Below, piece by piece: positions 40,146 through 50,038 of a stretch of DNA of 64,000 nt. Location of the stretch: positions 1-64,000 of the forward strand of contig NZ_PDWQ01000007.1 of NCBI RefSeq assembly GCF_010211745.1, in the 5' to 3' direction. The notes beneath the pieces are model-generated. The model saw only the letters and a list, made by a program, of their open reading frames with translations, was not told the origin of the DNA and made no database searches. The position numbers were made by a program, and so were the translations under genes. How positions within the stretch are numbered: position 1 is the stretch's first letter; each line of letters starts with the position of its first letter. The stretch is from Pseudoxanthomonas kalamensis DSM 18571. GTDB taxonomy: Bacteria > Pseudomonadota > Gammaproteobacteria > Xanthomonadales > Xanthomonadaceae.

Positions 40146-40241
40146 CGACTTCCAGCATCGATTTCCGGCATCGACAGGGTGATGCCGGTTGCTGCTTCCG
40201 TGGCATCATCGACCGCTGTCGTCCGTCGGGGGAACTGCATC

Positions 40242-42626
40242 ATGTGGAAATGGCTGCGCCGCATCGTCCTGCTGCTGATCGTCCTGCTGCTGGCGGCCGT
40301 GGTCGTGGCCTGGTGGATGTTGCGCGGCAGCCTGCCGCAACTGGATGGCGAGCTGGCCCTGCCCGGGCTGTCGGCGCCGGTCAGCGTGCAGCGCGACGCC
40401 TTGGGCGTAGTCACCGTCGAGGCGGCGAACGAAACCGACATGGCGCGTGTGCTGGGCTACGTGCACGCGCAGGAGCGTTTCTTCGAAATGGACCTGATGC
40501 GGCGCAGCTCCGCCGGCGAACTGTCCGAACTGTTCGGCCCGGTGGCGCTGGAGCTGGACAAGCAGCGCCGCGTGCACCGCATGCGCGCCCGCGCCGAAGC
40601 CAGTCTGGACAGCTTCGCCGGCAACCGGCGCACGCAACTGCAAGCCTATGTCGAGGGCGTCAACGCCGGCCTGGCCGCACTCGACTCGCGTCCCTGGCCC
40701 TACCTGCTGCTGCGCCAGCAGCCGCGTCCGTGGACGATGGCCGACTCGGCCCTGACCGGCTACGCCATGTACTTCGACCTGCAGGACGAACGCAACCTGC
40801 GCGAACTGGCCCTCGCCCAGATTCGCCAGCACTCGCCGCCGGCGTTGTACGCGCTGATCGCCCATGACGGCAGCCGCTGGGACGCGCCGCTGTACGGCCC
40901 GCCGCGTGGCGATGCCGTTCTGCCCGGTCCCGATCAACTCGACCTGCGCACGCTGCCGACACCGGACGGCGATCCGGCGCCCGCCATCGACGATGCCGGC
41001 ACGCCCGGCAGCAACAACTGGGCGGTATCCGGCGCCTTGACCGCCGATGGTCGCGCCATCGTCGCCGACGACATGCATCTGGGTCTGCGTGCGCCCGGCA
41101 TCTGGTTCCGGGCACGCCTGCGCTATGCCAATACGCGCGCACCGGGCGGCACGGTCGATGTATCCGGCTTCACCCTGCCCGGCCTGCCGGCAGTGATCGT
41201 CGGCAGCAACGGCCACGTGGCCTGGGGCTTCACCAACAGCTACATCGACACCGCCGACTGGAAACGCATCGCCAAGGCCGACTTGCCTGCGGCGGGGCTG
41301 CGGGAGCACGTCGAACGCATCGCCGTGGCCGGCGCCGAACCGATCGAACTGCGCGTGCGCGACACCGACTGGGGGCCGATCCTGCACGAGGACGCCAATG
41401 GCGACGCACTGGCCCTGCGCTGGGTCGCCCATCTGCCCGGCGCGGTCCGCGTCGATCTGGCCGACATGGCCGTGGCCGGAGACCTCGACGCCGCCTTCGC
41501 CGTGGCCGACCACGCCGGCGTGCCGGTGCAGAACCTGATGCTGGCCGACAGCCAGGGCCGCATCGGTTGGCGCTTGATCGGCATGCGTCCGCAGCGCAGC
41601 GGCGAATGCGGACTGCCGCTGGATGTCCCGTCTCCAGCCGTAGATGCCGAAGCCGGCGTAGCGCCCCAGGCGGAACCGGCCACCGCCTGCCCCGACTGGC
41701 CGATCCACGCCGACGCCGCACCGCAGGATGTCGATCCGGACAGCCATCGTCTGTGGACCGCCAATGCGCGCACGCTGGACAGCGAGGCACTGCAAGCGGT
41801 CGGCGACGGCGGCTATGCCTTCGCCGCGCGCGCGCAGCAGATCCGCGACGACCTGTTCGCCAGCGAACGCTTCACCGAGCACGACCTGCTGGCGATCCAG
41901 CTGGACGACCGCGCCGTGTTCATGCAGCAGTGGTGGCAATTGCTGCAGGCGCAGCCGGCCGCCGACGGCAGCGCGCTGGCCGAACTGGCGGCAGCGGCGA
42001 AGGACTGGAGCGGACGCGCCTCGGTCGATTCGGCCAGCTACCGGATCGTCCGCGCCTGGCGCCTGGCCGTGCGCGAACGCATCGCCGACGGCCTGACCGC
42101 CCCGGTACGCGCCGCCCTCGGCGAGGACTTCCAAATGCCGCAGCTGGGGCAACTGGAAGGCGTGGTCTGGCCGCTGCTGCAACAGCGCCCGGCGCATCTG
42201 TTGCCGCGTCAGTACGCCAGCTGGGATGCCCTGCTCGAGGATGCCGCCCGCGCCACCCGCGACGAACTGGCCGCGCAAGGCCCGCTGGCGCAGCGCAGCT
42301 GGGGCGAACGCAACACCGCACGCATCTGCCATCCGCTGTCCGCCGCGCTGCCGCTGGGCGATCGACTGCTGTGCATGCCGCACGAACCCTTGCCGGGCGA
42401 CGCGATGATGCCGCGCGTGCAGGGGCCGGCCTTCGGCGCCAGCGAACGCATGGTGGTGTCGCCCGGGCACGAGGCCGACGGCATCATCCACATGCCCGGC
42501 GGACAGAGCGGGCATCCGCTGTCGCCGTTCTGGGGCGCCGGCCACGACGACTGGGTGCAGGGCCGCGCCACGCCGTTCCTGCCGGGCCCGGCCCGGTATA
42601 CATTGCGCTTCTCGCCCGTGCGCTGA
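40242..42626 (+). CDS. Penicillin acylase (S45) family hydrolase
   Basis: A 794-residue Ntn-hydrolase precursor. One N-terminal membrane/signal segment (MWKWLRRIVLLLIVLLLAAV) is followed by the alpha-chain region, and the autocleavage site lies at GSNNWAVSG with nucleophile Ser about 257. The beta-chain (from about 257) has GNGHVAWGFTNSYID-type and ERMVVSPGHE segments. It ends HPLSPFWGAGHDDWVQGRAT, a typical C-terminus of the family. Substrates may be beta-lactams, acyl-homoserine lactones or other N-acyl compounds; sequence alone does not decide. It probably acts in the periplasm. The ATG at 40242 has GGGGGA upstream. Confidence 0.88.
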   Translation: MWKWLRRIVLLLIVLLLAAVVVAWWMLRGSLPQLDGELALPGLSAPVSVQRDALGVVTVEAANETDMARVLGYVHAQERFFEMDLMRRSSAGELSELFGPVALELDKQRRVHRMRARAEASLDSFAGNRRTQLQAYVEGVNAGLAALDSRPWPYLLLRQQPRPWTMADSALTGYAMYFDLQDERNLRELALAQIRQHSPPALYALIAHDGSRWDAPLYGPPRGDAVLPGPDQLDLRTLPTPDGDPAPAIDDAGTPGSNNWAVSGALTADGRAIVADDMHLGLRAPGIWFRARLRYANTRAPGGTVDVSGFTLPGLPAVIVGSNGHVAWGFTNSYIDTADWKRIAKADLPAAGLREHVERIAVAGAEPIELRVRDTDWGPILHEDANGDALALRWVAHLPGAVRVDLADMAVAGDLDAAFAVADHAGVPVQNLMLADSQGRIGWRLIGMRPQRSGECGLPLDVPSPAVDAEAGVAPQAEPATACPDWPIHADAAPQDVDPDSHRLWTANARTLDSEALQAVGDGGYAFAARAQQIRDDLFASERFTEHDLLAIQLDDRAVFMQQWWQLLQAQPAADGSALAELAAAAKDWSGRASVDSASYRIVRAWRLAVRERIADGLTAPVRAALGEDFQMPQLGQLEGVVWPLLQQRPAHLLPRQYASWDALLEDAARATRDELAAQGPLAQRSWGERNTARICHPLSAALPLGDRLLCMPHEPLPGDAMMPRVQGPAFGASERMVVSPGHEADGIIHMPGGQSGHPLSPFWGAGHDDWVQGRATPFLPGPARYTLRFSPVR

Positions 42627-42661
42627 GCACGCCGCCCGCCCTGCACAACCGGAGTCCCGCC

Positions 42662-42970
42662 ATGTCGCCGCGCATCCTGCTTTGCTGTCTTGCCGCCACC
42701 GTTCTGGCCGCCTGCAGTTCGGTACAACCCGCACCGGGCAAACCCGACGAACGTGCCGCCGCATCCGGCGAATGCACGGCCGAGCCGGTGCAATGGGCAA
42801 TCGGGCAACCCGCCTCGCAGGAAGTCATGGGCAAGGTCTGGCGCGAAAGCCATGGCGGCCTGATCCGGCCGATCGCGCCCAACCAAGCCGTCACCCAGGA
42901 CTACCGCGCCGACCGCGTCAACGTCGTCGTCGACAAGGACAATGTGATCACCCGCATCTATTGCGGCTGA
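42662..42970 (+). CDS. I78-family protease-inhibitor-like lipoprotein
   Basis: A 102-residue lipoprotein (lipobox LAAC, Cys about 18). The mature domain contains CTAEPVQWAIGQPASQEVMG, then HGGLIRPIAPNQAVTQDYRA and DRVNVVVDKDNVITRIYCG. This is the pattern of the peptidase inhibitor I78 (Aspergillus elastase inhibitor-like) family: ADRVNV...V.RIxCG. Two Cys can form the family disulfide. It lies 35 bases after the penicillin acylase homologue, so the two are likely co-transcribed. A role in protecting the envelope from serine proteases is inferred. Confidence 0.85.
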   Translation: MSPRILLCCLAATVLAACSSVQPAPGKPDERAAASGECTAEPVQWAIGQPASQEVMGKVWRESHGGLIRPIAPNQAVTQDYRADRVNVVVDKDNVITRIYCG

Positions 42971-42976
42971 CGGCGG

Positions 42977-44674
42977 CTACTCCCCCGCCAGCGCCTGTTC
43001 GTGCACGCCGGCCACCGCGCGGCCGGACGGGTCGGCGGCATTGGCGAAGCTGGCGTCCCAGGCGATCGCCGCCGGTGACGAACAGGCAATCGACTTGCCG
43101 CCCGGCACGGATTCAGCCGCGGCCGGCGTCGGATAGAAACGCTCGAACACGCTGCGGTAGAAATACGCTTCCTTGGTCTGCGGCGGGTTGATCGGGAAAC
43201 GCTTGTCGGCGGCGGCCAACTCGCGGTCGGACACCTGTGCCTCGGCGTGCGCCTTCAGCCCGTCAATCCAGCCGTAGCCGACGCCGTCGCTGAACTGCTC
43301 CTTCTGCCGCCACAGGATCGAATCGGGCAGGTAGCCGTCGAAGGCCTGACGCAACACGCCCTTCTCCATCCGCTGCGGGCCGGCGCTGCTCTTGTCGACC
43401 ATCTTGTACTTCGCGTCCATGCGCATGGCCACGTCGAGGAACTCGCGGTCCAGGAACGGCACCCGCGGCTCCACCCCCCAGGCCATCATCGACTTGTTGG
43501 CGCGCAGGCAGTCGTAGTTGTTCAGCGCGTCCAGCTTGCGTACCAGCTCCTCGTGGAATTCGCGCGCGTTCGGTGCCTTGTGGAAGTACAGGTAGCCGCC
43601 GAAGATCTCGTCGCTGCCTTCGCCGGACAGCACCATCTTCACGCCCATCGCCTTGATCCGTCTCGCCAGCAGGTACATCGGCGTCGAAGCGCGGATGGTG
43701 GTGACGTCATAGGTCTCGATGTGGCGGATCACTTCCGGCAATGCGTCCAGACCTTCCTCGAAGCTGTATTCGAAGCCGTGGTGCACGGTGCCCAGCGACT
43801 CGGCCGCAATCGCGGCGGCGGCCAGGTCCGGCGAGCCCTTCAGGCCGATGGCGAAACTGTGCAGGCGCGGCCACCAGGCCTCGGCCTTGTCGTCGTCCTC
43901 GATGCGATGGCGCGCATAGCGCGCAGCGACCGCGGCCACCAGCGACGAATCCAGCCCGCCGGACAGCAGCACACCGTAGGGCACGTCGGTCATCAGCTGC
44001 CGGTGCACGGCCGCTTCGAAGGCTTCGCGCAGTTCCAGCGGCGCTACTTCGACGCCTTCGACGGCATCGTAATCGCGCCATGGCCGCTGGTAATAGCGGC
44101 TCAGCTCGCCGGTCGCGCTGTCGTACCAGTGCCCCGGCGGGAACTGCGCCACGTCGGCGCAAGTATCGGCCAGCGATTTCATCTCCGAGGCCACCCGCAA
44201 CCGGCCTTCCCTGTCGTGGCCCCAGTACAGCGGCACCACGCCGATCGGGTCGCGGGCGATGATCGCGCGACCCTGCGCCTTGTCCCACAGCGCGAAGGCG
44301 AAGATGCCGTTGAGGCGGTTCAGGTAACTGGCCGGTTCGTCTTCCAGATACAGCGCATTGATCACTTCGCAGTCCGAGCCGGTCTGAAAGGCGTAGTCCT
44401 GCTTCAGCTGCTTCTTCAGTTCGCGGTGATTGTAGATCTCGCCGTTGACCGCCAGCGCCAGCCGTCCGTCGTCCGACAGCAGCGGTTGCGACCCGCCGGC
44501 CGGATCGACGATGGCCAAGCGCTCGTGGACCAGGATGACGCCCTCGTCCAGGTACACACCGCTCCAGTCGGGGCCGCGATGGCGCTGGCGTTGCGACAGT
44601 TCCAGCGACTGCCGTCGCAGATCCTGCAGGTCGTCGCCCGGTTGCAGGCCGAAGATGCCGAAGATCGAACACAT
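42977..44674 (-). CDS. asnB: Asparagine synthetase B (glutamine-hydrolysing)
   Basis: A 565-residue enzyme. It has the N-terminal glutaminase domain with nucleophile Cys2 (MCSIFGIFG), NGEIYNHRELK and a GSDCEV segment, and the synthetase domain with the PP-loop GVLLSGGLDSSLVA (about 225-240) and SGEGSDEIFGGYLYFHKAP. It makes asparagine from aspartate, glutamine and ATP. The length matches E. coli AsnB (554 residues). Start ATG at 44674 (Cys must follow Met). It is preceded by an Asn-rich leader frame and an intrinsic terminator, so expression is probably set by ribosome-mediated attenuation. No Shine-Dalgarno is obvious. Confidence 0.95.
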   Translation of the reverse strand: MCSIFGIFGLQPGDDLQDLRRQSLELSQRQRHRGPDWSGVYLDEGVILVHERLAIVDPAGGSQPLLSDDGRLALAVNGEIYNHRELKKQLKQDYAFQTGSDCEVINALYLEDEPASYLNRLNGIFAFALWDKAQGRAIIARDPIGVVPLYWGHDREGRLRVASEMKSLADTCADVAQFPPGHWYDSATGELSRYYQRPWRDYDAVEGVEVAPLELREAFEAAVHRQLMTDVPYGVLLSGGLDSSLVAAVAARYARHRIEDDDKAEAWWPRLHSFAIGLKGSPDLAAAAIAAESLGTVHHGFEYSFEEGLDALPEVIRHIETYDVTTIRASTPMYLLARRIKAMGVKMVLSGEGSDEIFGGYLYFHKAPNAREFHEELVRKLDALNNYDCLRANKSMMAWGVEPRVPFLDREFLDVAMRMDAKYKMVDKSSAGPQRMEKGVLRQAFDGYLPDSILWRQKEQFSDGVGYGWIDGLKAHAEAQVSDRELAAADKRFPINPPQTKEAYFYRSVFERFYPTPAAAESVPGGKSIACSSPAAIAWDASFANAADPSGRAVAGVHEQALAGE

Positions 44675-44711
44675 GGGGAAGGTTTCCGTTTTCCGTTGAA
44701 GGGCTTGGGCG

Positions 44712-44742
44712 AAAAAAAACCCGCATCTCGCGATGCGGGCTT
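44712..44742 (-). terminator. asnB attenuator (intrinsic terminator in the leader)
   Basis: In the transcript: AAGCCCGCATC, a GCGA tetraloop, GATGCGGGTTT, with eight T in a row. An 11-bp stem (one G-U) lies 37 bases before the asnB start codon. Its 5' arm (44731-44739) is also complementary over 9 bp to 44779-44787 in the leader frame, so an antiterminator can replace it. Confidence 0.88.
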
Positions 44743-44767
44743 GCTGATTCGGCTTGGTGTACTTCGC

Positions 44768-44857
44768 CTAGTCGCGGACCCGCATCGGCCGCGCACGATT
44801 GTTCGCGCACGGATTGTTGCGGTTGGCGTTGTTGGCGTTGTTGGCGAACATGAGCAT
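44768..44857 (-). CDS. Asn-rich leader peptide of asnB
   Basis: A 29-codon open frame: ATG at 44857 (second in-frame ATG at 44851), TAG at 44768-44770. It begins MLMFANNANNANRNN and contains nine Asn codons, at residues 6, 7, 9, 10, 12, 14, 15, 19 and 20. The remainder is Ala/Arg/Pro and ends RVRD. Its last codons (44779-44788) contain the sequence that can pair with the terminator 5' arm. Low Asn-tRNA charging would stall the ribosome on the Asn codons and leave that sequence free, so the antiterminator forms and asnB is transcribed. With ample Asn the ribosome reaches the stop codon, masks it and the terminator forms. The Shine-Dalgarno is weak. It starts 40 bases after the dapE stop codon. 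Confidence 0.85.
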   Translation of the reverse strand: MLMFANNANNANRNNPCANNRARPMRVRD

Positions 44858-44896
44858 GCAGTCACGCTATCCGATGCCGGTGCTGCAGCGCAACAG

Positions 44897-46027
44897 TTAC
44901 GCCAGCAACCGTTCGATCAGTTCCAGGTACAGCCCCGGCAGCGCCTGCAGTTCGTCCACGCTGACGTGCTCGTCGACCTGGTGGATGCTGGCGTTGACCG
45001 GGCCGATCTCGACGCACTGCGCGCCCAGCGGCGCGATGAAGCGCGCGTCCGAGGTGCCGCCGCCGGTGCTTTCCTCCGGCGGCACGCCGATGAACTGCGT
45101 CAGCACCTCGCGGGCGACGCTGCGCAGGCGTCCTTCCGGGGTGTAGAACGGCTCGCCACTGCGGTGCCAGGCCAATGTGTAGTCCAAGCCGTGTTCGCCC
45201 AGCATCGCCTCGATCTCCGCCTCGAGCCGCGGCGCGTCCCAGTGCGGGTTGTAGCGAAGATTGAACAGCACCTGCAGTTCGCCTGGGATGACGTTGTTGG
45301 CGCCGGTGCCGGCATGCACGTTGCTGATCTGCAGGCTGGTCGGCGGAAAGCTTTCGTAGCCGTCGTCCCAGTGCCGCGCGACCAACGCGGCCAGCGCCGG
45401 CGCGGCCTGGTGGATCGGATTGCGCGCCTTGTGCGGATAGGCGACGTGACCCTGCACACCCCTCACCGTCAAGGTACCGGACAGGCTGCCGCGGCGGCCG
45501 ACCCGCAGCAAGTCGCCCAGGGTGTCGGCCGAGGATGGTTCGCCGGTAATGCACCAGTCGATGCGCTGACCACGCTCGCGGAACATCTGCGCCACTTTGC
45601 GCACGCCGTCGATGGCGTCGCCTTCCTCGTCCGAAGTCAGCAGCAGCGCCAGCGTACCCGGATGTCCGGGATGCGCGGCGGCGAAGCGTTCGGCGGCGAT
45701 GACGAAGGCGGCCACGCTGCCCTTCATGTCGGCCGCACCGCGACCGTACAGCGCACCGTCGCGAATCTCGGACACGAACGGATCGCTGGCCCAGGCCTCG
45801 CGCGGGCCCGGCGGCACCACGTCGGTATGCCCCAGCAGGACCAGCACCGGCCCGCCGCCGCTGCCATGCGAGGCCCACAGGTTGTCGACCTCGCCGAAGC
45901 GCAGGGATTCGCAGGAAAAGCCTGCTGCCCGCAGCCGCGCGGCGATCAACGCCTGGCAGCCGGCATCGTCCGGCGTCAGCGAAGCGCGCGCGATCAGTTC
46001 GCGGGTCAGGTCGAGGACATCGCTCAT
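44897..46027 (-). CDS. dapE: Succinyl-diaminopimelate desuccinylase
   Basis: A 376-residue M20 metallo-hydrolase. Zinc ligands lie in LLGHTDVVP (His about 66), [11 protein letters not shown] (Asp about 98) and LTSDEEGDA (Glu pair about 131-132). A dimerisation domain ([20 protein letters not shown]) follows, and the C-terminal His is in [11 protein letters not shown]. It releases L,L-diaminopimelate in lysine and peptidoglycan synthesis. The length matches E. coli DapE (375). It overlaps the ArsC-like gene by four bases (ATGA) and is followed by the asnB leader, so part of the asnB transcript may come from read-through of the dap operon. Confidence 0.95.
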
Positions 46028-47416: not shown

Positions 47417-50038
47417 TCAATTCTTCTCGTTATCCAGTCCCGCAAGCAAGGCCTCGCGCAAGGCCTGCTGCGCATCGGCTGTCAGCGGACGGTCGGTCTC
47501 GTCGGTGATCTGGAAGAAATCCTCGGCGCGTTCGCCGAAGGTGGCGATGCGCGCCTCGTGCACGCGCAAGTGCTGGCGGCGCAGCACCTGGGCCACGTCG
47601 GACAGCAGGCCGGGACGATCCGGCACGACCAGACTCAGCACGGTCTGCCGACCGTCCAGAGTGGCGCCGAACTCGATCCGCGGGGCGAAACGGAAGTGCT
47701 TGAGTTGCCGAGGCAAGGCCCGCCGCGAGGTGCGCACCGCGTCCAGCGGACCGTCCAGCGCCTGCTGCAGCGCCTGCGCCACCTCGTCCGGGTCGCCGCT
47801 GGCGTAACTGTCGGCCGGCAGCACCTCGAAGCTGTCGAACACCGTACCGCCCGGCCCCATCAGCACCCGCGCCTGATGGATGCCGAAGCCCATGCGGTCC
47901 AGGCTGGCGAGGATGGCGGCGAACAGGCCGTCGCGGTCCGGCGAATGCACGAACACCTCCATTGCACCGGCGTCCGCGTCGACCCGTCTTGCACTGGCGC
48001 GGGTCTGGCCTGCGCCCACGCCGCGGATCGCCAGCGCCTGCCAGACCACCTGCTCCGGCCGCAGCCGCAGGAAGCTCTCGCGCGGCATCCGCGCGAACAA
48101 GGTGTCGGCCTGCGGCGCCGGCACGCCCTGCACCGCCAGCAGCCGGCGCACCTCACTGCGCGCCTCGGCCAGTCGTGCAGCCATCTCCACCGGATGCTCC
48201 AGCCCTTCGCGCAGGGCGCGACTGGCGGCGAAATACAGGTCGGCCAGCAGCCGGTCCTTCCACGCATTCCACAATTTGGGGCTGGTACCGGCGATGTCGG
48301 CGCAGGTCAGCAGGTACAGATAGTCCAGGTGCTCGCGATCGCCGACCAGGGTGGCGAAACGGCGGATGACTTCGGGGTCGGCAATGTCCTGCTTCTGCGC
48401 GGTCACCGACATCCGCAGGTGCTGTTCCACCAGCCAGGCGACCAGCGCGGTATCGCCGCTCGACACGCCATGCGCCTGGCAGAACTCGCGCGCATCGACC
48501 GCGCCGAGTTCGGAATGGTCGCCGCCGCGGCCCTTGGCGATATCGTGGAACAGCCCGGCCAGCAGCAGCAGCTCGGGCTTGCGCAACCGCGGCCACACTT
48601 CGTGGGCAATCGAAAAACGCTCGTCCGGCCGTCCCTGGGTGAACAGCGCGATGTTCCGCAGCACCATCAGCGTGTGCTGGTCGACCGTGTAGACATGGAA
48701 CAGGTCGAACTGCATGCGCCCGGACACCTGGGCGAAGGCCGGGATCCACTGCCCCAGCACCCCCAGCCGCGCCATCCGGGTCAGCGTGTCGACCGCGCGC
48801 GGGCTGCGCAGCAGGGCCATGAACGCCTCGCGCTGCGCCGGCGTGGCCTGCGGATACGCCGTCAGCCTGGGCAGCGCCTCGGCCAGCGCGCGCGCGGTCC
48901 GCGAATGCAGGCCACGTGCCTGCGGATGCGCCGCCCAGCAGGCGAACAGCGCGAACACCTGCTCCGGCTCGCCGCGCGGCCAGTCGCGCGAACGCGCGGC
49001 CAGATAGCCATTGCGCAGGGCGAACCGGTCGTCCAGCGGTTCCGGCACGCCTTCGCCGTCGAACTGTTCCTCGAAGCGATGCAGCAGCCGGTCGCTGATG
49101 CGGCGGACGATCGCCGCGCTGCGGTAGAACCCCTGCATCATCTTCTCGACCGCAAGGCTTTCGGCGTCGTCGACGAAACCCAGATGGCTGGCCAGGGTCT
49201 TCTGGTAATCGAAACGCAGGCGTTCTTCCGGACGGCCGGCGACCAGGTGCAAGCCGTAGCGCAGGCGGCTGAGCGCATTGCGCTCGCGCGCCAGCGCGCG
49301 TGCTTCGTCCGGCCCCAGGTGACCCAGGCCGACCAGCGCTTCCAGATCGTGCACGCCGAAGGTACGCAGCGCCATCCAGCCCAGCGTGTGCAGGTCGCGC
49401 AGGCCGCCGGGGCCTTCCTTGATGTTGGGCTCCAGGTTGTCCGAGGTGTCACCGTGGCGGGCATGCCGCGCACGCATTTCGTCCAGCTTGGCGGCGAAGA
49501 AGGCGCGTGCCGGCCACACCCGGTCGGCGCCGATGGCCGCCTCCAGCAGCGCGACCTGTTCCGGCGTGGCAACCAGCGGACGCGCCTCGATCAGCGCGGT
49601 CAGCACGGTCTGGTCCTCGGCCGCTTGGGTGGTCTGTTCGGGCGAACGCACCGCATGGCTGGCCGCCAGTCCCGCATCCCACAACCGGGCGAACAGCGCC
49701 GACAGCGCCTCGCGATGGGCCTGCTGGACGTCCGCTTCGGCCAGCACCAGCAAGTCGATGTCCGAATGCGGGAACAATTGCCCGCGGCCATAGCCACCGA
49801 CCGCGAACAGCGCCAGCGGCGCATTGGCCGGCAGGCATTGCCGCCAGACGCGACGGAGGATCTGGTCGACGCCGCGCGCGCGCAGCGCCACCAGACGGTC
49901 CATGCCGTTGCCGCGCACGCCGGCATCGAAGCGCCGGTTCAGGCGCGCGTCCAGTGCCTCGAGGTCTTCGCGCAGCGAGGCGACCGGATCGGTTTCGCCA
50001 GCGGCGTGCACCGCCGGATCGGGCACGGCCGCGGACAT
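47417..50038 (-). CDS. glnD: Bifunctional PII uridylyltransferase / uridylyl-removing enzyme
   Basis: An 873-residue protein. The nucleotidyltransferase domain carries [20 protein letters not shown] (Gly-Gly and DID motif, about 79-98). A GlnD-type linker with [15 protein letters not shown] is followed by an HD domain ([20 protein letters not shown], about 510-530) for deuridylylation, and two C-terminal ACT domains (about 690-770 and 800-873) sense glutamine. It controls PII and so nitrogen assimilation. The length is normal (E. coli 890). It starts four bases after the map stop codon and is likely co-transcribed with map; dapD follows on the same strand. Confidence 0.95.

Follow-up and report, generated by a model that had tools for sequence, protein, structure and literature searches.

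A candidate asparagine-specific, ribosome-mediated transcription attenuator upstream of asnB in Lysobacteraceae

The asnB locus and the elements of its leader

The window analyzed here is a stretch of 64,000 nucleotides from Pseudoxanthomonas kalamensis DSM 18571 (GCF_010211745.1, contig NZ_PDWQ01000007.1), and all coordinates at this locus refer to it. The regulated gene, asnB, encodes a 565-aa asparagine synthetase B (NCBIfam NF006949, 869.6 bits) and lies on the minus strand at 42977..44674. The genes dapE and dapD are found upstream of it, identified by NCBIfam as was asnB, with dapE directly upstream on the same strand. A nitrogen-regulation gene is also nearby, since a glnD-like PII uridylyltransferase (PF08335) is located upstream of the dapD-dapE-asnB genes at 47417-50038 on the minus strand. 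A penicillin amidase family protein (PF01804, 434 bits) is encoded at 40179-42626 on the plus strand, and the long minus-strand ORF overlapping its gene (40206-42800), for which neither Pfam nor NCBIfam gave a match, appears spurious.

An earlier note on this DNA had described a 29-codon leader frame with nine asparagine codons within residues 6-20, a terminator after it, and an exact complement of that terminator's 5′ arm at the end of the frame, and each of these elements was found on the minus strand as described. The leader frame spans 44768..44857 (minus strand) and, read from the ATG at 44857, is translated as MLMFANNANNANRNNPCANNRARPMRVRD followed by a stop codon, with Asn at residues 6, 7, 9, 10, 12, 14, 15, 19, and 20; both sequence and conservation point to this Asn-codon region (residues 6-20, 44798..44842, minus strand) as the predicted stall sites. 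Given an Asn fraction of 1.66%, which was derived from 71 six-frame ORFs of at least 250 aa in the window with real and spurious frames pooled, the probability of at least nine Asn in 29 residues is 7e-10, and among the 214 short ATG ORFs (15-60 aa) of the window the runner-up to these nine Asn has three. The ORF has two early in-frame ATGs, at 44857 and 44851, and the promoter described below fits the one at 44857. A search of the leader peptide against Pfam returned no match.

Between the frame and asnB is a terminator with an 11-bp stem and a GNRA-type GCGA loop, AAGCCCGCATC-GCGA-GATGCGGGTTT (44717..44742, minus strand; terminator scan and covariation), and a T8 run at 44712..44719 (minus strand). 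The stem begins 25 nt after the leader stop codon, and 37 nt separate the T8 run from the asnB ATG at 44674. The generic terminator scan covered 44000-45500, a region in which 1.0 terminator-like site is expected by chance. The leader sequence CGATGCGGG (44787..44779) is complementary over 9 bp to CCCGCATCG (44739..44731) in the 5′ arm of the terminator, and complementarity together with covariation delimits segment 2, the antiterminator 5′ arm CGATGCGGGT (44778..44787, minus strand), and segment 3, the antiterminator 3′ arm GCCCGCATCG (44731..44740, minus strand), which is also the 5′ arm of the terminator. Antiterminator (2:3) and terminator (3:4) hence exclude each other, and the terminator stands between the frame and asnB. 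A further hairpin, 1:2, is predicted at 44771..44796 (minus strand) from the fold and a related consensus hairpin; it begins immediately 3′ of the last Asn codon and would sequester the 5′ arm of the antiterminator.

Upstream of the frame, comparison of loci revealed a predicted promoter with a -35 element TTGCGC (44888..44893, minus strand) just past the dapE stop codon and a -10 element TAGCGT (44864..44869, minus strand) that ends 6 nt before the leader ATG. The promoter at this locus was detected solely by this comparison; no site was returned for 44000-45500 by a generic promoter scan, whose shuffles average 0.2.

Conservation of frame, pairing and promoter

The asnB gene was detected at E <= 1e-100 in 357 of 395 whole genomes of the family. 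Upstream regions were collected from the best 80 of 470 asnB relatives in named genomes and from 29 new loci of the family genomes, giving 110 loci (L001 and L006-L114). Of these, 89 distinct loci remained after removal of L022 and of 20 loci whose 300 nt of upstream sequence were identical to others. The leader seems to be tandemly duplicated in L022 (1881-2233), but the two copies lie in identical sequence on the two sides of a 100-N gap, which most likely reflects a scaffolding artefact. Alignments used the 59 of these 89 loci that were less than 95% alike, and the arm-swapping test used 58 (L013 was left out). Another alignment, A2, was not used for counts because the terminator is palindromic and many of the 133 matches were to its opposite strand.

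The earlier note had proposed two checks among Lysobacteraceae, for conserved Asn-rich frames and for covarying terminator and antiterminator arms, and both features were found. An Asn-rich short frame and a terminator precede asnB in 89 of 89 distinct loci, with 3-10 Asn per leader (median 7), where, at each locus, the ATG frame having the highest number of Asn was taken as the leader, a choice that favors the claim. The 2611 leader codons of these loci include 312 AAC and 297 AAT in comparison to 4 AAG and no AAA, i.e., 609 Asn versus 4 Lys codons, and AAC and AAT swap freely at four aligned Asn positions. This interchange and the near absence of Lys codons indicate that it is Asn that has been selected, and not A-rich DNA. 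The ratio of AAC to AAT is near 1:1 in the leaders (312:297) versus about 6:1 in asnB (699:115, 78 loci); the excess of the minor Asn codon could serve to adjust stalling or the structure of the RNA.

Alignment of the 59 sequences showed the terminator paired in 99.2% of cells, with changes on both sides in 5 of its 11 pairs, and the antiterminator paired in 89.5% of cells, with such two-sided changes in 4 of 11, while slid controls for antiterminator pairing reached at most 44.2%. Two end positions of the antiterminator are often unpaired, each in 23 of the 59 sequences. The complement between the leader end and the terminator 5′ arm measures 5-11 bp in 89/89 loci and at least 8 bp in 72. Arms from the same locus paired better than swapped arms (mean -17.39 versus -16.70 kcal/mol; 0 of 5000 permutations, 58 loci), a comparison in which, as in the shuffle controls, the relatedness among loci is left in place. 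The C-terminal peptide of the leader differs between groups and the complementarity to the terminator stays, partly by compensating changes. In L175, L182, and L186 the leader has GCAGGCC and the terminator 5′ arm GGCCTGC, where other loci have GCGGGCC and GGCCCGC, and the terminator 3′ arm of these three loci is unchanged (GCGGGCC); such a compensating change is expected only if the antiterminator itself is under selection.

The 1:2 hairpin was seen in folds and in the consensus, with little covariation. It replaced another candidate hairpin, placed around the last two Asn codons, whose pairing (75.1% of cells) was barely higher than at a 2-base slide (71.5%). Within the antiterminator, folding suggested a small helix (44751..44768, minus strand) that pairs GGC (44768-44766) with GCC (44753-44751), with a mean z of -1.09 (59 loci). 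This helix failed the swap test, in which 478 of 5000 permutations were as good, and is retained as possible on account of its z score.

In 82 of the 89 loci a sigma70-like element was recognized by sequence, its -10 ending 6 nt (43 loci), 7 nt (37), or 8 nt (2) ahead of an in-frame leader ATG. The element consists of TTG (mostly TTGC), then a spacer of 17 or 18 bases, and finally a -10 with the pattern TANNNT (CANNNT in some), and in the remaining seven loci the best promoter score fell at another place. When the upstream sequences were shuffled in 20 control rounds, a mean of 2.25 and a maximum of 5 of 89 loci showed such an arrangement. Given that the -10 lies 6-8 nt before the leader ATG, the transcript is predicted to start at or beside the AUG, here at or beside 44857, which would make it a leaderless mRNA. 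The lack of a transcription start between dapE and the leader had been named in the earlier note as a result that would speak against attenuation; the conserved promoter-like element before the leader ATG argues for such a start.

A covariance model of the element matched 284 of the 395 family genomes at E <= 0.01, representing 32 of 54 genera. Among 29 divergent loci of the family that were read directly, 21 had an Asn-rich leader, many ending in NNASLPRAGD or a variant, and 17 of these 21 leaders contained a complement of at least 6 bp; since they were picked also by promoter score, their promoter spacing is not independent evidence. No leader was found upstream of asnB at eight of the 29 divergent loci (L195-L201 and L185). 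At L195-L201, which represent some genera of the family, asnB is diverged (64-65% identity to that of the window) and may be a replacement or a paralog.

A second family of the same order, which we guess to be Rhodanobacteraceae, had asnB in 25 of 31 genomes, and 21 of these 25 loci (L212-L230, L232, and L236) had a leader, with a C-terminus other than in Lysobacteraceae. L221 is included in this count, although one of two selections of leader frames settled on another frame there. The asnB match of L236 begins only at residue 205, and the leader of this locus came to light once the start of the gene had been located. L233 has a weak leader with 3 Asn, and no leader was seen before asnB in L231, L234, or L235. 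A complement of at least 8 bp was present in 15 of the 19 second-family leaders measured. In this family, 15 of 19 leaders examined had a CTTGC box and an AGT-type -10 placed 26-27 nt apart (TTG to AGT), and in 14 of those 15 the AGT ends 6-9 nt before the ATG. A class-wide search at E <= 1e-150 detected asnB in 4 of 185 genomes; one of these (L211) belongs to another order, and its asnB has no leader.

Proposed mechanism and competing explanations

Taken together, the sequence evidence makes it very probable that the element is a ribosome-mediated transcription attenuator that senses asparagine through the charging of tRNA-Asn. In the proposed mechanism, a ribosome would load at the 5′ end of a leaderless mRNA that starts at or beside the leader AUG. 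When charged Asn-tRNA is plentiful, the ribosome would reach the stop codon and cover segment 2, such that the terminator 3:4 forms before asnB. When it is scarce, the ribosome would stall on the Asn codons and mask segment 1, and segment 2, freed in this way, would pair with segment 3 to block the terminator and allow asnB to be transcribed. If the leader is not translated, hairpin 1:2 would sequester segment 2 and lead to termination.

The folding energies bear on the last of these states. Mean values for the 89 loci were -11.9 kcal/mol for 1:2, -26.7 for 2:3, and -18.4 for 3:4, and in 82 of them the folds favored 2:3 over 3:4; because 2:3 outweighs 3:4, termination must depend on 1:2 or on the ribosome and not on thermodynamics. 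The predicted 1:2 hairpin would complete the four-segment logic of trp-type attenuators. The spacing of the parts is also consistent with such a mechanism. A ribosome covers approximately 10-12 nt beyond the A-site codon and approximately 15 nt behind the P site. The antiterminator arm lies a median of 9 nt past the last Asn codon, and the stop codon ends a median of 11 nt past the antiterminator core. At these distances segment 1 would be covered, and segment 2 left free, by a ribosome stalled at the last Asn codon, whereas segment 2 itself would be covered by a ribosome that has reached the stop codon. The suggestion of the earlier note that a ribosome on the Asn codons leaves the antiterminator free and one at the TAG covers it fits these medians, and its view of the element as the trp/his/thr logic applied to Asn gains support from the conserved frame, the mutually exclusive pairing, and this geometry.

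A charging sensor requires that Asn-tRNA reports free asparagine. AsnRS was found in 21 of 21 genomes searched, and neither GatB nor AsnA was found in any of 13 searched genomes from the genus, among them that of the window and two incomplete drafts. Given that AsnRS is present and GatB and AsnA were not found, Asn-tRNA should be made from free Asn, so that its charging should report free Asn as the sensor needs, and asnB should, with AsnA not found, be the main route to Asn. In the related literature, a table row in PMC3771888 names AsnB2 (XCV1533) of Xanthomonas.

Three other explanations were weighed against attenuation. A leader peptide ending in NNRARPMRVCD might arrest its own ribosome when free Asn or some other signal is sensed; the Asn codons would then belong to an arrest peptide and would not report tRNA charging. 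The RARPMRVCD C-terminus is indeed kept among close relatives; however, leaders of other genera end in ASLPRAGD and those of the second family in RWRARA or GWAGV with the Asn runs retained, and both the number and the positions of the Asn residues vary. Since the conserved end of the peptide sits on the antiterminator arm, its conservation is explained by the pairing, and we consider arrest by the nascent chain improbable. A small functional protein or a trans-acting RNA produced from the frame and its promoter, with attenuation being secondary, appears slightly less probable still. Such a role has a precedent, in that the leader RNA and peptide of the Sinorhizobium meliloti trp attenuator are reported to act in trans (PMC7298713), but here the peptide lacks a Pfam match and its ends differ between groups, whereas terminator and antiterminator are conserved.

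The hairpin might also be simply the terminator of the upstream dap operon, accompanied by a chance reading frame and without any regulation. This would suit the present locus, where dapE adjoins upstream, and 56 of 144 loci, where the dapE match ends 211-551 nt before asnB. However, the leader still occurs where dapE is 1.2-2.2 kb from asnB (17 of 144 loci), and among the 71 of 144 loci in which dapE was not found within the stretch examined, it is also present at the 13 for which that stretch was 2.5 kb. Leaders at loci without an adjacent dapE indicate that the leader goes with asnB. Moreover, the promoter-like element, the Asn content, and the antiterminator pairing are all conserved, and we regard a plain dap terminator as the least credible of these readings, with next to no weight.

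Relation to known leaders

To our knowledge, the known gammaproteobacterial leaders do not include one for asparagine. The earlier note had suggested that the element may be undescribed, and this agrees with full-text searches of open-licence literature, which misses most subscription journals; among the papers listed, no title or displayed abstract described an asparagine attenuator. In the available text of PMC2965389, a survey of premature terminators, 'asparagin' does not occur and the single match to 'asn' is in the reference list. The element had no match in Rfam at gathering score; Leu_leader (RF00512) scored 17.7 of the 50 bits and Thr_leader (RF00506) 13.3 of the 55 bits required, both below the cut-off. 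We think it likely that this is the first Asn-specific ribosome-mediated attenuator, that it occurs in at least two families of the order on a leaderless mRNA, that it would serve as the main Asn sensor where AsnA and GatB were not found, and that its terminated leader RNA and its peptide could act in trans, as is reported for rnTrpL and peTrpL.

The predicted mechanism is classical, the amino acid appears to be new, and the start is predicted to be leaderless. The trp, his, thr, and leu attenuators of gammaproteobacteria likewise combine a short frame enriched for codons of the pathway product with a terminator and an antiterminator that exclude each other and with a biosynthesis gene downstream, and the 1:2 hairpin predicted here would have its counterpart in them; in contrast to those systems, the element described here has Asn codons, precedes asnB, and has a predicted leaderless start. 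In Firmicutes, T-boxes controlling Asn genes would likewise couple premature termination to the charging of tRNA-Asn, but a T-box binds the tRNA directly and without translation; no T-box match was obtained at gathering score in the window, nor at E up to 10 for 44650-44950. For the start of the transcript, the closest parallel is the S. meliloti trpL attenuator RNA (rnTrpL), which is reported to begin at its leader ATG (PMC7298713) and precedes a biosynthesis gene; it differs in having Trp codons, in coming from an alphaproteobacterium, and in that its leaderless start is experimental whereas the present one is predicted.

If this interpretation is true, Asn joins the amino acids known to be sensed by leader-peptide translation. 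The element would then give direct access to the way in which these bacteria, of which several are plant-associated, gauge the Asn available to them. It would also provide a natural setting in which to study attenuation starting on a leaderless mRNA, and the covariance model could annotate the element automatically.

Two weak covariance-model matches outside asnB were looked at. One, a weak second match in the window's own genome (L202:917-1110, contig C73), has a frame MLHRHTPMTNARRASDAALLVLVLITSPTGAGRAGA followed by a GC-rich terminator with a T run before ilvC, and a TTGACA box shortly before the ATG of the frame. With its short LLVLVLI-containing frame and similar terminator it resembles the asnB leader, and it differs in its branched-chain codons and downstream gene; this element, itself predicted only, is a probable branched-chain attenuator of ilvC. 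The other match (L207, E 2.6e-4), in genome G398 from another family of the order, lies upstream of a gene that, judging from its translation, we take to be ilvD, and is probably another amino-acid attenuator.
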